DNA from: Catellatospora coxensis
GTDB taxonomy: Bacteria; Actinomycetota; Actinomycetes; Mycobacteriales; Micromonosporaceae
Assembly (NCBI RefSeq): GCF_016862635.1
Contig: NZ_BONI01000007.1
Location: 62,001-126,000 of the forward strand
DNA: 64,000 nt
Direction of reading: 5' to 3'
Shown: positions 31,741 through 49,753 of the stretch, one piece after another
Position numbering within the stretch: the stretch's first letter is position 1
How the letters are laid out: each line of letters begins with the position of its first letter
Notes under the pieces: generated by a model
Database searches by the model: none
Told to the model about the DNA's origin: nothing
Seen by the model: only the letters and a program-made list of their open reading frames with translations
Translations under genes and position numbers: made by a program

Positions 31741-33270
31741 CTAGAAGGGCCAGGCGGCCGACTCGCCGGACTCGATGAGACCGATCATCGAGAACGCCGC
31801 GTCGGTGAGCCCGCCGAAGGTGTGCCGCCTCCCCGCGACAGGCGTGTGCCCGAGGCGGTGGCCCGCGAGGTTCCAGGTGTAGACGGGGACCGCGGCGGGC
31901 ACGGCGGCCGCCACGTCGGCGCTACCGTGCCAGTGGGCCTGCTCGTCGGTCAGGATCAGGACCCGGTCGTGGCCCGCGTAGTGCTTGCGGACCGCGTGCT
32001 CGGTCGAGGTGCCGCCGCCGAAGAACCAGCCACCCTCCTTGAACCGCTGTACGGCCTTGAGCACCGACTCGCCGGGCCGCAGGTCGAACAGCTTGGTGTC
32101 GTTCGAGAACGACACGACCGTCGCGGCGGCCGCGCGGGCCGCCAGGGCCAGGCCGAACATGGTCGCGGCGTCCCAGCAGCGCAGCGAACCGTCGCGGCTG
32201 AACGAGCTGTTCATCGAGCCCGAGGTGTCGATCAAGATCAGCGTGCGACCGCCGAGCCGGGGCACGTTGCCCAGCGCGAACTGCAGCGCCTGCTCCAGCG
32301 GGTACGCCCAGCGCAGGCTCGGCGCCGCGTTGTACGCCGACAGGAAGCGCATCGGCAGCACCCGCGACCGGTCCACCTCGTCCGGGTCGGACAGCTTCGC
32401 CGCCACCACGGCCGCGACCTCGTCGCCGACCCCGGCCTGGTCGAAGTTGCGCAGGTTGCGCAGCAGCGCGAGGTAGCCCATCGACGGGATCACCGCGGAC
32501 CACGCCGCCGCGTCCAGCGGCCCCTGCCGCCAGCCCGCCAGCGCCTCCCACGTCATCCCCGCCGCGGCCAGCGCCTGCGGGTCGAGCACCGCGGCCCGCT
32601 GCTCGACCGGCAGCGCCATCAGCTGCTCCCGGGCGCGCAGCACCCGCAGCGCCTCCGGGATCGGGTTGTCCCGCTGGTGGCGGCGGTCCAGCGCGTGCTG
32701 GAACAGCTCACCCTGGGCCGCGTCGCGCGGGCTCGGGTGGGTCAGCTCCAGCACGTCCGCGAAGCGCAGCGCACGGCCCTCCGAGTCGTACTTGAGCAGG
32801 CTGCGCTCGTGGTAGAGCCGCACTGCCGCGTCGGCGATGCCGCGCTTGACCGGCTTCGGCAGCGCCCGGCCGTGCACCGACAGCCAGTAGGCCAGGGCCT
32901 CCCCGGGCTCGTCGGCCCGCTGCAGCGCCGCGTCCACCACCGCGCGCGACCCGGGGATACCCGCCGCTACCTGCGCCTTCGCACCCTCCAGCGCGGCCAC
33001 CACCGAGGCGCTGCGCAGGTTGGCCCCGAGCCGCAGCCACGGCACGAACCGCGCGAACCATTCCGGGTCCGCCACGGCGACCTTCGCCACCAGCGCCCGG
33101 AACCGGGCGTCACGCTCGTCGGCAAGCTCGTAGAACGTCTGCTCGCCGACCATGTTGGACACGGCCAGCAGGAACAGCTCCAGCTTCGGCTCCCGGGCGA
33201 ACCCGGGCGCGCCCTCGGCGGTCACCCCGGCCGGGCGCTTGACCAGCGTCGACAGGTTGAACCTCGCCAT
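31741..33270 (-). CDS. rsr: Ro60/Rsr orthologue (TROVE plus vWA domain), Y RNA-binding protein
   Basis: A 509-residue protein from the ATG at 33270, preceded by GGAGGGG. Fourteen upstream codons to 33312 are probably untranslated. It has an all-helical TROVE repeat domain (about 1-330) with RFVPWLRLGANLRSASVVAALEGAKA and MTWEALAGWRQGP. A von Willebrand A-like domain follows, with the MIDAS DTSGSM (348-353), the Thr of GGGTSTEHAV and the Asp of LILTDEQAHW. Ro proteins are ring-shaped and bind Y RNAs on their outer face and misfolded RNA ends in the central hole. In bacteria they can tether PNPase. Four Y-RNA-like genes lie just upstream on the same strand. No rtcB or rtcA is present. Confidence 0.93.
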   Translation of the reverse strand: MARFNLSTLVKRPAGVTAEGAPGFAREPKLELFLLAVSNMVGEQTFYELADERDARFRALVAKVAVADPEWFARFVPWLRLGANLRSASVVAALEGAKAQVAAGIPGSRAVVDAALQRADEPGEALAYWLSVHGRALPKPVKRGIADAAVRLYHERSLLKYDSEGRALRFADVLELTHPSPRDAAQGELFQHALDRRHQRDNPIPEALRVLRAREQLMALPVEQRAAVLDPQALAAAGMTWEALAGWRQGPLDAAAWSAVIPSMGYLALLRNLRNFDQAGVGDEVAAVVAAKLSDPDEVDRSRVLPMRFLSAYNAAPSLRWAYPLEQALQFALGNVPRLGGRTLILIDTSGSMNSSFSRDGSLRCWDAATMFGLALAARAAAATVVSFSNDTKLFDLRPGESVLKAVQRFKEGGWFFGGGTSTEHAVRKHYAGHDRVLILTDEQAHWHGSADVAAAVPAAVPVYTWNLAGHRLGHTPVAGRRHTFGGLTDAAFSMIGLIESGESAAWPF

Positions 33271-33332
33271 GTTGTCCCCTCCCCCGGGGGTTTTCGGGCG
33301 CGCGAAACCCATCCGGGGGTACGGGAGGGAGA

Positions 33333-33428
33333 CGCGCCTCCCGAGATCGATGTGGCCACGGACCGAGATCGGCTTGCGCCGTCTTCAATACCAGTGAAGT
33401 AGCCGTGGCCTGCGCACCGGGAGGTGCG
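33333..33428 (-). ncRNA. Y RNA-like gene 1 (YR1), adjacent to the Ro gene
   Basis: About 96 nt, ending 62 bases before the Ro ATG on the same strand. The closing stem pairs 33418-33428 with 33333-33343 (11 pairs, one mismatch). Next comes the conserved asymmetric core shared by all four RNAs, 5' CCCGGTGCGC facing 3' TCGATCTCGGG. A perfect eight-pair inner stem follows (GGCCACGG with CCGTGGCC). The head carries two small hairpins: CTTCA/TGAAG with a seven-base loop, and CGGC-GCAA-GCCG with a GNRA loop. There is no tRNA-like module. A promoter sits at the right distance upstream. Confidence 0.75.
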
Positions 33429-33434
33429 GAGATC

Positions 33435-33464
33435 AATGTAGGCGCGGTTCGTCATGGCGGGCAA
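33435..33464 (-). promoter_or_regulatory. Promoter of Y RNA-like gene 1
   Basis: Minus-strand TTGCCC (33464-33459), an 18-base spacer, then TACATT (33440-33435). The predicted start falls about seven bases on, at the first paired base of the RNA. The element overlaps the possible early start of the divergent phosphopantetheinyl transferase gene. Confidence 0.6.
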
Positions 33465-33504
33465 AGGGTTTGTCGCCGTGCGCGTTCGTGCCATCGTGGT
33501 CGTC

Positions 33505-34083
33505 ATGTCGGGCATCCGGATCTGGCTGGCCCCCGCCGTGGACGCCACCGCCCTGGCCCGCCACGCCGCGGGCGAGATGCTCGGCATCGACCCCGCGCCG
33601 ATCGAGATCGGCCGCGAGCCGGCGGGCCGGCCCTATGTGGTCGGCGCTACCGGTATGCACCTGGCCATCAGCCACACCCGGGAGCTGTCAGCCGTGGCCG
33701 TCACCGGTCTCGGCCCGCTGGGCGTGGACGTCGAGCCGCTCCGCCCCCTGCCCGCGGCCGAGCTGGCCCGGCGCTGGTTCTCCGCGCCGGAAGCCGACTG
33801 GGTCGCCCGCCACCCGGACGACTTCCTGCTGCTGTGGACCGCGAAGGAGGCCGTCGGCAAGGCACTCGGCATCGGGCTGCGCGGCGACGGCCTGCGCCGT
33901 CCCATGCCGCTGCCCCCGGCCGCGACCCTGATCGCGACGATCCCAGGGTTGCCTTCGATGGCGGTCGCCGCATGGGCGCAGGATGGAATCGTGCTCGGCC
34001 TGGCCTGCGACTCCGCTGCGGCACTCGGCGCCTCGGTCACCGTCTCGGTCGCCGCTCCGCCTGCGCGGGCCGACAGCCGATGA
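33505..34083 (+). CDS. 4'-phosphopantetheinyl transferase superfamily protein (Sfp type)
   Basis: A 192-residue protein from the ATG at 33505. An ATG at 33454 is in frame but overlaps the Y RNA promoter and adds a non-conserved tail. Family motifs are present: GRPYVVGATGMHLAISHTREL, the Mg2+-binding GVDVE (73-77) and WTAKEAVGKALG (111-122). It would transfer phosphopantetheine from CoA to a carrier-protein serine. No polyketide or peptide synthetase is encoded in this window, so its partner lies elsewhere. The gene is isolated on the plus strand inside the Ro/Y RNA locus, facing Y RNA-like gene 2, whose 3' end is about 20 bases away. Confidence 0.88.
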   Translation: MSGIRIWLAPAVDATALARHAAGEMLGIDPAPIEIGREPAGRPYVVGATGMHLAISHTRELSAVAVTGLGPLGVDVEPLRPLPAAELARRWFSAPEADWVARHPDDFLLLWTAKEAVGKALGIGLRGDGLRRPMPLPPAATLIATIPGLPSMAVAAWAQDGIVLGLACDSAAALGASVTVSVAAPPARADSR

Positions 34084-34102
34084 CGTCCACCATGCAGAAA
34101 CG

Positions 34103-34268
34103 CGGCACGCCCGAGATCGAGTCGGTGACGGCGTGGTGGTCCCGTCGCCGGGACCTGGCGCTCTTGGCCGCTGAGCTACCGCCGTCCTGACGGACGGCGA
34201 GCGGGATTCGAACCCGCGACCTCCCCGTTATCAGCGGAGTAGCCGTAACCTGCGCACCGGGCGTGCCG
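34103..34268 (-). ncRNA. Y RNA-like gene 2 (YR2) with a tRNA-mimic module
   Basis: About 166 nt. The closing stem pairs 34258-34267 with 34104-34113 perfectly. The same core follows (CCCGGTGCGC / TCGATCTCGGG), then an inner stem GGTTACGGC with GCCGTCACC. The head reads as a circularly permuted tRNA. First comes an anticodon-arm-like hairpin with loop CTGATAA, as in tRNA-Ile(GAT), then a variable-loop-like AGGTC. A canonical T arm follows, GCGGG-TTCGAAT-CCCGC. The seven-pair acceptor stem is closed by a four-base loop where a tRNA has its ends, and a D arm GCTC...GAGC comes after it. An extra hairpin (GGTCCCG-GCGA-CGGGACC) follows the D arm. The real 5' and 3' ends are in the Ro-binding stem, so this is not a tRNA gene. 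Confidence 0.8.
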
Positions 34269-34274
34269 TGTTCC

Positions 34275-34405
34275 TCTCCCGAGATCGAGGTCGCGGCGGT
34301 GTAGCCATTGCTCTGCCGGCTGAGCTACCGGACCCGAAGGTCCAGGCGGGGCTCGAACCCGCGACCCATGGAGGAAGAAGTATCCGCTGCCTGCGCACCG
34401 GGAGA
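34275..34405 (-). ncRNA. Y RNA-like gene 3 (YR3), YrlA-type tRNA mimic
   Basis: About 131 nt, ending only six or so bases before YR2. The closing stem pairs 34399-34405 with 34275-34281, followed by the shared core. The head is a compact permuted tRNA. It runs CCAT (anticodon-stem 3' strand), GGGTC (variable loop) and T arm GCGGG-TTCGAGC-CCCGC. The acceptor stem CTGGACC/GGTCCGG is closed by a UUCG tetraloop, then TA, D arm GCTC-AGCCGGCA-GAGC, and AATGG pairing back to CCAT. This is the architecture described for bacterial YrlA RNAs, in which the Ro-binding stem takes the place of the anticodon arm. A promoter lies directly upstream. Confidence 0.85.
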
Positions 34406-34414
34406 CGTATGTCC

Positions 34415-34443
34415 AACCTAGATCCGCCCGCCCTCCGCGGCAA
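34415..34443 (-). promoter_or_regulatory. Promoter of Y RNA-like genes 3 and 2
   Basis: Minus-strand TTGCCG (34443-34438), a 17-base spacer, then TAGGTT (34420-34415). The predicted start is near 34408, two or three bases before the YR3 closing stem. No separate promoter fits between YR3 and YR2, so both are probably made as one transcript. Confidence 0.6.
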
Positions 34444-34479
34444 CGGATTTCCGGCTGGCGCACATGTGCAGTCGACCGC

Positions 34480-34519
34480 TCACCTCATCTTTGCTGTGCC
34501 AACAGCAAAGATGAGGTGA
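34480..34519. terminator. Long hairpin between Y RNA-like genes 4 and 3
   Basis: Perfect 18-base arms (34480-34497 and 34502-34519) close a GCCA loop. It lies about 20 bases past the 3' end of YR4 and before the YR3 promoter, so it probably ends the YR4 transcript. Its AT-rich inner stem resembles the palindromes at 11503 and 44379. Confidence 0.65.
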
Positions 34520-34539
34520 ACTCGCACAGACCGTGGTGC

Positions 34540-34672
34540 CGGCGCGGCCCGAGATCGAGGTGGCGACGGAGTCCCGTCTCCGGGAGCACTTCACAGGCCG
34601 CGCCGCGCTCAGCGAGAGCCCGGCCGAAGCGGCCTCCATGGTGTATCCGTCACCGGCGCACCGGGCGCGCCG
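34540..34672 (-). ncRNA. Y RNA-like gene 4 (YR4) with a different head
   Basis: About 133 nt. The closing stem pairs 34662-34672 with 34540-34551 with one bulged base. The core CCCGGTGCGC / TCGATCTCGGG is conserved. The inner stem is long (GGTGACGGA with TCCGTCGCC, one G-U pair). The head shows GGCCG-CTTC-GGCCG, a GCTC/GAGC hairpin and TCCCG-GAGA-CGGGA. There is no T-loop TTCGA, so it is not an evident tRNA mimic, although the GCTC/GAGC pair could be a D-arm relic. It has its own promoter (34681-34710) and a terminator. Confidence 0.7.
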
Positions 34673-34680
34673 CGGAGATC

Positions 34681-34710
34681 ATCGTATGATCCGCCAGGCC
34701 GGCCTTGCAA
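34681..34710 (-). promoter_or_regulatory. Promoter of Y RNA-like gene 4
   Basis: Minus-strand TTGCAA (34710-34705), an 18-base spacer, then TACGAT (34686-34681), followed by GATCTCCGC. The same GATCTCCGC follows the -10 of Y RNA-like gene 1, so the two promoters share more than the core hexamers. Confidence 0.6.
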
Positions 34711-34765
34711 CAGGTTTGGCCTCGCCGTGCCCGCTGCTACGAGACTTGCCGTCGAGGTAGGTCAC
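34700..34765 (-). pseudogene. Possible VapC toxin remnant
   Basis: A GTG at 34765 overlaps the vapB-like stop (GTGA), as in intact vapBC pairs, and reads VTYLDGKS. After a one-base frame change it continues as LVAAGTARP. This loosely resembles the VapC opening (T-Y-L-x-D-x-S-A). Nothing longer follows, because the Y RNA-like gene 4 promoter occupies the site. The call rests on a very short stretch. Confidence 0.25.
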
Positions 34766-34971
34766 CGCCAGGCGGCCTGCTCGACGTCGGTCTCTGCGAG
34801 CCGATCCGCGGTGAGCAAGGCGACCTTCATGAACCGAGCCGCTCGCACCTGACGTCGCTGGGCGATCTCGCGCAACGCACGGTTGACGGTCTCCGCCTTG
34901 GTCGAGGTGCCCAGCTCCGCCATGGCGAGGGCCAGTGCTTCCTCGTCGATGTCCACCAGCGTCTTGGCCAT
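34762..34971 (-). CDS. VapB-like type II antitoxin, apparently without its toxin
   Basis: A 69-residue protein opening with MAKTLVDIDEEALALAMAELGTSTKAETVNRALREIAQRRQ. This is the compact DNA-binding start typical of actinobacterial VapB antitoxins, where KAETVNRALRE is the family signature. The C-terminal tail (ARFMKVALLTADRLAETDVEQAAWR) would wrap a VapC toxin. No full PIN-domain toxin follows, only a possible short remnant at 34700-34765. It lies just upstream of Y RNA-like gene 4 on the same strand. Its present role may be DNA binding only, or neutralising a toxin encoded elsewhere. Confidence 0.75.
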   Translation of the reverse strand: MAKTLVDIDEEALALAMAELGTSTKAETVNRALREIAQRRQVRAARFMKVALLTADRLAETDVEQAAWR

Positions 34972-49186: not shown

Positions 49187-49306
49187 GGCGTGTGACGTTA
49201 GCGCCCCGCCGCGCACCGGCACGCCGGTTGCGCCGCGACACGCCGAGGGAAGGATCACGGCCCCGTACCGGGTACCGGCACTGGCGCTCGGGGATACATT
49301 TGCCGG

Positions 49307-49753
49307 GTGACCAGTCCCGCCCGCCGCCGCCCCACCGCCGCCCGCCGCCGACGCGACCGCCACGGCCGGGGTATGCGCGGTCGGCTGGTGCCGGCCAGCG
49401 TGCCCCTGGCCCGGACGAAGGCCGAGGTCTTCGACGAGCTGGTGCTGGACACGGTGGAGTCGCTCGAGGCGCGCTTCGCGACCGAGCTGGCCGGGGTGGA
49501 GTTCGCGGTCGAGGACGTGCCGCCGGACCTCAACGTCTACGACTCGGACGTGCTGGAGGACGGGCGGGTGCCGCTGGCGCGGCTGCTGCCGGGACGGCCG
49601 GGCAGGCACGGGGTGCCGCCGCGGATCGTGGTCTACCGGCGTCCGCTGGAGTTCCGGGCCTCAGATCGGGACGACCTGGGCGAGCTGGTGCGGGACGTGA
49701 TCGTGGAGCAGGTCGCCAACCTGCTGGGCCTGAACCCGGACGATCTGGCATAG
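49307..49753 (+). CDS. Metallopeptidase-like protein lacking the HExxH motif
   Basis: A 148-residue protein from the GTG at 49307. An Arg-rich N-terminus (TAARRRRDRHGRGMRG) precedes a domain of the zincin-like metallopeptidase family (EVFDELVLDTVESLEARFATELAGVEFAVEDVP, then PPRIVVYRRPLEF). Where active members have HExxH, this protein reads VIVEQVANLLGLNP, so both zinc-binding histidines are missing. Actinobacterial orthologues in this position appear similarly altered. It is probably a structural or regulatory derivative, not a protease. It is divergent from DUF3499 and converges with whiB. Confidence 0.85.
   Translation: MTSPARRRPTAARRRRDRHGRGMRGRLVPASVPLARTKAEVFDELVLDTVESLEARFATELAGVEFAVEDVPPDLNVYDSDVLEDGRVPLARLLPGRPGRHGVPPRIVVYRRPLEFRASDRDDLGELVRDVIVEQVANLLGLNPDDLA

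Follow-up and report, generated by a model that had tools for sequence, protein, structure and literature searches.

A Y RNA array with two circularly permuted tRNA-like heads beside the Ro60 ortholog gene of Catellatospora coxensis

The 64,000-nucleotide stretch of the Catellatospora coxensis genome analyzed here (the window) carries rsr, a gene for a bacterial ortholog of Ro60, and four Y RNAs that all lie upstream of it on the same, minus strand. The rsr gene (31741..33270, minus strand) encodes a protein of 509 amino acids in which domain and profile matches recognize a TROVE domain and a vWA-like part. Its product contains the TROVE domain PF05731 (48.5 bits, cut-off 23), scores 19.5 bits against vWA_Ro60 (PF25045), which is under the cut-off of 27.7, and matches the TROVE proteins of the PDB entries 9L5Y and 9KOP with an E value of 2.9e-31. 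The ATG at 33270 is more likely to be the start of the gene than position 33312, and the 3' end of the nearest RNA is found about 60 bases ahead of this probable start codon. Inspection of the sequence confirmed RNA1 (33333..33428), RNA2 (34103..34268), RNA3 (34275..34405) and RNA4 (34540..34672) at the positions and on the strand that had been proposed in a preliminary description of this DNA; RNA3 and RNA2 are separated by 6 bases. The common core that had been noticed there is present in each of the four RNAs, with CCCGGTGCGC on the 5' side and TCGATCTCGGG on the 3' side, and the outer stems pair in all of them, the 3' arm of RNA4 having one additional C. This stem between the 5' and 3' ends, with its conserved bulged core, is a feature of bacterial Y RNAs; the core presumably resembles the Ro-binding core of the vertebrate Y RNAs. 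When the folding energies were compared with those of 200 dinucleotide shuffles, z-scores of -4.0, -5.3 and -3.6 were obtained for RNA1, RNA2 and RNA4. The plus strand gave -4.3 for RNA1 and -3.0 for RNA4, so that the energy does not identify the strand; for RNA2 a single strand was folded.

Above the common stem the four RNAs differ from each other. The head of RNA1 is formed by two plain hairpins, CUUCA-CUGGUAU-UGAAG and CGGC-GCAA-GCCG, and that of RNA4 by hairpins that do not resemble a tRNA, one of them capped by GAGA. Neither of these two RNAs shows the permuted head with D, T and acceptor arms that is present in RNA2 and RNA3. In RNA3 the order is that of a circularly permuted tRNA, with the T arm (GCGGG UUCGAGC CCCGC, 34346..34362, minus strand, placed by the Rfam YrlA alignment), an acceptor stem capped by UUCG and the D arm, and the anticodon arm is replaced by the Y stem through the closing stem CCAU/AUGG. 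This is the YrlA-type head, and the Rfam model of this family (RF02553) matches RNA3 over its whole length at 34290-34390 with 43.4 bits (E 1.4e-7), under the gathering score of 69; the match of the same model to RNA2 is partial and reaches 27.5 bits. The head of RNA2, assigned with our parser, is a complete circularly permuted tRNA accompanied by an extra hairpin, and its arms follow each other in the order anticodon arm, variable loop, T arm, capped acceptor stem and D arm, all on the minus strand. The 17-base anticodon arm (CUCCG CUGAUAA CGGGG, 34223..34239, with the triplet GAU at 34230-34232; assigned by the parser and by covariation of the homologous stem) directly precedes the variable loop AGGUC, and its own loop is that of the host tRNA-Ile(GAU). 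The T arm (GCGGG UUCGAAU CCCGC, 34201..34217) was located by the parser, and the acceptor stem (34179..34200), in which a short closing loop takes the place of the CCA end, and the D arm (GCUC AGCGGCCAA GAGC, 34160..34176) by folding and the parser. Here the Y stem does not replace the anticodon hairpin. The description of the heads as distinct inserts was right in that they differ, and had overlooked that two of them mimic a circularly permuted tRNA, in one case with its full anticodon arm. R1, a covariance model of the complete-tRNA type built from bacteria only (67 rows, one of which is RNA2 itself), recovers the four RNAs of the window at 109, 94, 41 and 30 bits (109.4 for RNA2, 41.2 for RNA1 and 29.6 for RNA4) and gives no further match in the window below an E value of 0.8.

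The conservation of these RNAs was analyzed in the Rsr loci of relatives, for which the best 80 of 434 relatives found by an Rsr protein search of genome contigs were used, all of them actinomycetes by their record titles. A detector that combines a two-sided weight matrix of the core with the pairing of the outer stems found, at a score of at least 24, 193 RNAs on the Rsr strand of the 80 loci and none on the opposite strand or in Markov shuffles; at a score of 14, the laxest one listed, the counts were 202, 8 and 7. These counts, together with the covariation presented below, refute the idea that the stems are chance inverted repeats; the region is GC-rich and the folding z-score of RNA3 is modest, and still we regard this explanation as practically negligible. 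Over 81 loci (the window and a duplicate locus, L006, included), 3 have no Y RNA, 13 have one, 30 two, 17 three, 17 four and 1 five, with L003 and L007 undercounted because two RNAs were merged into one in each. Stem and core are thus kept beside the Ro gene in relatives, with at least one RNA in 78 of the 81 loci, and the loss of both, which had been named as the outcome that would speak against a conserved RNA, was not observed. From the same counts, the notion that one or two Y RNAs are usual and four are special does not hold in this group. As for the conserved RNA with a conserved protein-binding site that had been claimed, there is a conserved family with one common stem, which presumably binds Rsr.

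The heads are conserved as well. The four kinds found in the window recur in equal order in the Catellatospora loci L002, L003, L005 and L007, therefore distinct heads have been kept apart over time; an additional YrlA-type RNA is present in L002, L003 and L007, and the RNA2 kind is missing from L004. The second hairpin of RNA1, which ends in a GCAA tetraloop in the window, has the form of a T arm with the loop UUCGANN in L002, L003, L004 and L007. From here on the duplicate L006 (identical to L005) is excluded from the head counts. Of 77 loci with a Y RNA, 61 hold an RNA of the complete type, that is, with an anticodon arm, and 45 mix tRNA-like and other heads; in 16 of the 77 there are at least two complete-type RNAs, and the loops are different within each locus. 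The suggestion that one Ro protein is accompanied by different RNAs is supported by the detector, the locus counts and the alignment as far as several RNAs per Ro protein and different heads are concerned; by analogy, these several heads may serve a single Rsr. A second rsr gene is found in Catellatospora vulcania and in C. methionotrophica (L018 and L019), in each case with a single Y RNA whose minimal head has 40-41 bases.

The T arm, the acceptor stem and the D arm were parsed in 120 of the 193 RNAs (with the window in), and 117 of these heads were tested after dropping 3 with implausible acceptor loops; head types come from our own parser, which makes some misparses, such as those at L036 5832 and L067 5294. 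At the position of the anticodon arm, a stem with at least 4 of 5 pairs is present in 88 of the 117 heads, where 1000 shuffles gave a mean of 19.0 and a maximum of 33, and a stem with a YUNNNRA loop is present in 63, where the shuffles gave a mean of 0.28 and a maximum of 2. By the parser, 79 of the 193 RNAs are of the complete type. An alignment of 67 of them (A2; 12 were left out) has 93.1% of its cells paired vs 75.1% after shuffling, 28 of its 43 pairs have changed on both sides, and its covariation is 0.489 vs 0.163 in shuffled and at most 0.121 in slid alignments. The pair that closes the anticodon loop is A-U in 32 rows, G-C in 13, U-A in 7 and C-G in 5, the 10 unpaired rows being partly alignment shifts. 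The tertiary contact 15-48, which we take to be the Levitt pair, is C-G in 48 rows and U-A in 19, with no exception in the 67. Unaligned, it is G-C in 58 of all 79 complete-type RNAs, A-U in 19, A-C in one and U-C in one; in the 38 remaining heads a similar but less clean trend is seen, with 13 G-C, 15 A-U and 10 others. In topology, the 117 heads divide into 86 that have an anticodon hairpin and no closing stem of the YrlA type, 14 with the reverse, 2 with both and 15 with neither. The 14 heads with only the closing stem use 8 different Watson-Crick stems, and about 2 such stems are expected by chance among the 29 heads without a hairpin. Both topologies occur in the window, in RNA2 and RNA3. 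ARAGORN called 88 of 93 de-permuted heads a tRNA and none of 465 fully shuffled ones.

ARAGORN also reads part of RNA2 as tRNA-Ile(GAT), and three Y RNA-like heads of phages (L142 2769-2843, L143 2774-2847 and L146 2644-2715) are annotated as tRNA-Arg(cct), tRNA-Ser(gct) and tRNA-Arg(tct), as would be the case if RNA2 and its relatives were tRNA genes, ordinary or permuted, that mature into working tRNAs. We consider this very improbable: the arms of RNA2 are in a permuted order and not in the linear one of a canonical tRNA (acceptor, D, anticodon, T, acceptor), free acceptor ends are absent, the genome already has an ordinary tRNA-Ile(GAT), and the triplets differ between orthologs. In 68 of the 79 complete-type RNAs a loop of 3-6 bases closes the acceptor end, and because of this closure charging as a tRNA is unlikely, which holds for both permuted heads of the window. 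Permuted Y RNA heads would then explain some false tRNA annotations, in phage records and, by a like error of ARAGORN, in the window. A single ancestral tRNA per head is not claimed, given that the nearest one among 50 of the 55 tRNA matches of the same genome shifts and the margins are small.

Within the anticodon arm the triplet varies and the frame of the loop does not. In 60 distinct arms the entropy is 1.77-1.88 bits at the triplet positions 34-36, and 1.04 bits at C32, 0.61 at U33, 1.19 at R37 and 0.56 at A38; altogether, 29 triplet types occur among the 79 complete-type RNAs. Ten orthologs from Micromonospora have a nearly constant stem and loop frame around the triplets CAT (5), TCC (4) and CCG (1), so that the minor counts at the three positions are 4, 5 and 5 of 10. 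Moreover, G36 is associated with G37 (7/3/4/33 in 47 distinct loops, p 0.0005), an association that is also found in real tRNAs. These data bear on an explanation in which the heads are tethers only, that is, they need a tRNA elbow to link Rsr to PNPase, as in the RYPER of Deinococcus, and the anticodon arm, a relic of a tRNA or simply a stable hairpin, has no separate role. This is a real possibility, if not a probable one. It agrees with the best-tested bacterial function, that of RYPER, according to the excerpts through which we use the cited publications (PMC8394870, PMC6181284, PMC7790460), and also with the free variation of the triplet and with the D and T arms being among the most constant parts. 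Nevertheless, drift should not preserve C32, U33, R37 and A38 at an entropy that is low in comparison with that of the triplet, nor a stem of 5 base pairs with four types of pair at its loop-closing position, nor the association of G36 with G37. The constant frame of the anticodon loop argues that the whole tRNA body is recognized, anticodon arm included.

The bodies also come in more than one type. The class of the D stem is associated with the length of the variable loop (42/7/4/26, p 1.3e-10), and the D arm resembles that of the host tRNA-Glu(UUC) in some heads and is Gln-like in others, the labels being ours. At least two D-stem classes are present in 13 of the 16 loci with multiple complete heads, one of the 13 (L036) depending on a misparsed head. 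By eye, permuted heads that resemble a tRNA-Leu with a long variable arm were seen at L050 5820, L178 2303-2459, L180 2049-2204 and L181 1921-2083.

Ro-like genes are also found in phages; from 58 phage records with a Ro-like match, 14 loci were examined, and in 12 of them R1 finds Y RNA-like matches beside the Ro-like gene, the two loci without an R1 match at that place being those of Thermus phage phiLo and halovirus HGTV-1. In eight actinophage loci, 16 of the 36 R1 rows were parsed, and the other 20 are ordinary tRNA genes or weak rows; all 16 have a T arm, 6 have an anticodon stem, and 4 of these 6 also have a NUNNNRA loop. For the other six phage loci the parsing covered all 16 rows; a T arm was recognized in 15 and the stem in 4, each of the 4 with a NUNNNRA loop. 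The shuffle expectations for these phage arms are 0.1 and 0.05. Gordonia phage VanLee (CUUCUAA) and Xanthomonas phage Olaya (CUGUUAA) are examples with an anticodon loop, and most of the parsed phage heads lack a clear anticodon arm. At its gathering score the Rfam YrlA model matched neither the 14 phage loci nor 11 loci of relatives. In Streptomyces phage JustBecause (L148 2160-2912) an RNA ligase gene lies immediately upstream of the Ro-like gene, which has a Y RNA-like match.

The retention of anticodon loops while the triplets change, also between the Micromonospora orthologs, the different D-stem classes inside one array, the presence of such RNAs in some phage Ro loci and the RNA ligase gene beside one phage Ro gene that has a Y RNA-like match are what could be expected if the heads were decoys or sensors for enzymes attacking the anticodon loops of tRNAs, with varied triplets and bodies covering the targets and Rsr providing the link to repair or decay. 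A competitive inhibition of an anticodon nuclease was suggested by Hughes et al. for Salmonella YrlA, and a VapB-type antitoxin gene adjoins RNA4. In the available excerpt of the same work, however, Salmonella YrlA is not cut by the nuclease studied (PMC7790460); in addition, 29 triplet types in 79 RNAs point to no obvious target, no VapB-like motif was found in the loci of the 80 relatives with the pattern used, no repair gene is present among the scanned neighbors of rsr, and RtcB is encoded on a different contig of the C. coxensis genome. We entertain this explanation tentatively and judge it somewhat unlikely. A broader form of it, in which the Ro60 of actinomycetes and of some phages would carry a panel of whole-tRNA mimics with varied bodies and anticodons, acting as baits or reporters for anticodon-loop enzymes in the conflicts between host and phage over tRNA damage and repair, is still more speculative and in our opinion doubtful.

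The reading that we favor, and hold to be quite probable, is that the locus encodes Rsr with an array of four Y RNAs that have a common handle and exchangeable heads, two of which are permuted tRNA mimics that most likely engage enzymes of the tRNA body. The RNAs would be transcribed and bound by Rsr through the common stem core, a role expected from the known Y RNAs and from its conservation, and the heads would act as exchangeable effector modules. RNA3 is the known form, YrlA, with the Y stem in the place of the anticodon arm. In RNA2, a second form, the tRNA is opened between its D and anticodon arms; due to this opening point, the Y stem carries the whole tRNA, including the anticodon arm and the tertiary core. 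Through the permuted heads, Rsr would most likely hold or recruit enzymes that recognize tRNA bodies for decay, modification, cleavage or repair, the candidate partners being PNPase for decay, modification enzymes, and anticodon nucleases together with repair. The plain hairpins of RNA1 and RNA4 would serve other partners. The data establish the homology, the structure (through covariation), the conservation and the arrangement as an array, from which the binding by Rsr, the transcription, the partners and the role in the cell are deduced. In short, the data suggest that Ro60 displays tRNA look-alikes, and a role of the tRNA body mimics on Rsr is likely.

Several observations weigh against this interpretation. 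The rsr product scores 37.9 bits against the Rsr equivalog model NF041674 of NCBIfam, far under its cut-off of 900; this model is narrower than Ro60 orthology. No Rfam family matches the window at its gathering threshold. The folding z-score of RNA3 is only -1.8, with 9 of the 200 shuffles equal or better, its minimum free energy structure shows no visible T arm, and that of RNA2 has a hairpin at the anticodon position but in a different register. The use of ARAGORN as a proof of the anticodon arm was dropped, because heads in which only this arm had been shuffled were still called tRNAs (363 of 465). Besides, 15 of the 117 tRNA-like heads match neither topology, and the loci share phylogeny, so the cell counts of the alignments do not represent independent events.

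Several features of the array are shared with known systems. Known Y RNAs bind Rsr through their stem, and the head of the Deinococcus Y RNA tethers PNPase (PMC8394870, PMC6181284); in the excerpts YrlA is described as a circularly permuted tRNA (PMC11472068; PMC8394870), reported to be modified by TruB and DusA and to tether PNPase (PMC8394870). Like YrlA (RF02553; the Salmonella RNA is PDB 6CU1), the RNAs of the window adjoin a Ro60 ortholog and have an end-to-end stem, and two of them have a permuted head with D, T and capped acceptor arms. In contrast, RNA2 has an anticodon hairpin that is missing from the RF02553 consensus and its Y stem is attached at another place, the heads of RNA1 and RNA4 are not tRNA-like, and no RNA of the window attains the gathering score. 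RNA1 resembles the Y RNA of Deinococcus radiodurans (RF01053) in its stem and two-hairpin head, and by eye both contain CACGG-N-UAC-UUC, of which the program aligned the first part only; nonetheless, the match is weak (17.5 bits, E 0.41), and RNA1 has GCAA where four Catellatospora loci have a T loop. RYPER, as excerpted, shares with this locus a ring-shaped Ro protein and a Y RNA whose head can recruit an enzyme, whereas here there are several distinct heads per locus and the binding by Rsr is presumed. Circularly permuted tRNA genes (PMC3978253, in part) also have their tRNA parts reordered; here the parts lie inside a Y RNA and the acceptor end is capped.

As far as the excerpts tell, it has already been published that Y RNAs are encoded close to Ro60 in many bacteria, that the TROVE proteins of phages have a tRNA-like partner, and that the Salmonella operon contains two Y RNAs. 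Chen et al. (2014) is reportedly among the earlier publications on these bacterial Y RNAs. While tRNA mimicry by Y RNAs is already known, the anticodon arm and the mixed panels of heads look like new features; in excerpts from a literature search that did not cover the founding papers, no Y RNA was described as having an anticodon arm. According to the same partial sources, what is known about the partners of Ro60 and its Y RNAs in bacteria comes mainly from Deinococcus and Salmonella. A complete anticodon arm in the head of a Y RNA, together with the covariation of the tertiary pair and the variation of the triplet, is a precise and testable clue to a binding partner. Arrays that combine different tRNA-like heads in one locus, which also occur in some phages, allow a direct test of a role in the surveillance, damage or repair of tRNAs.

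A search of 296 Actinomycetota genomes with R1 gave 28 matches in 15 genomes at E values of at most 1e-6. Outside the window, 13 of 26 matches are two adjacent ordinary tRNA genes with about 49-62 bits (L156, L158-L163, L168, L169 and L172-L175), and no estimate of prevalence is drawn from this search because the tandem order of tRNAs mimics the permutation. This mimicry suggests a tandem pair of tRNAs as the origin of the permuted heads. A second Y RNA locus in the C. coxensis genome, on contig C29, was considered and rejected, as both R1 matches are without the Ro core. These matches (C29:49034-49176 and 49195-49336; L140 6035-6177 and 6196-6337) are permuted tRNA-like elements that follow a DUF7873 gene (C29:48276-49004). 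All 11 searched genomes of the genus contain the pair and the DUF7873 gene, with two R1 matches at each locus and 22 altogether, and the gene is missing from all 10 relatives outside the genus.

Between RNA1 and RNA2 lies a gene for a phosphopantetheinyl transferase (33454-34083, plus strand). The open reading frame of the VapB-type antitoxin (34762-34971, minus strand; PF09957, E 1.5e-8) is located about 90 bases upstream of RNA4, and none of the scanned neighboring genes encodes a VapC. Finally, a perfect inverted repeat occupies positions 34481-34518, between RNA4 and RNA3; two more copies in the genome (on C6 and C37) differ from it by two mismatches that preserve the pairing, so that the repeat is a small dispersed palindrome.

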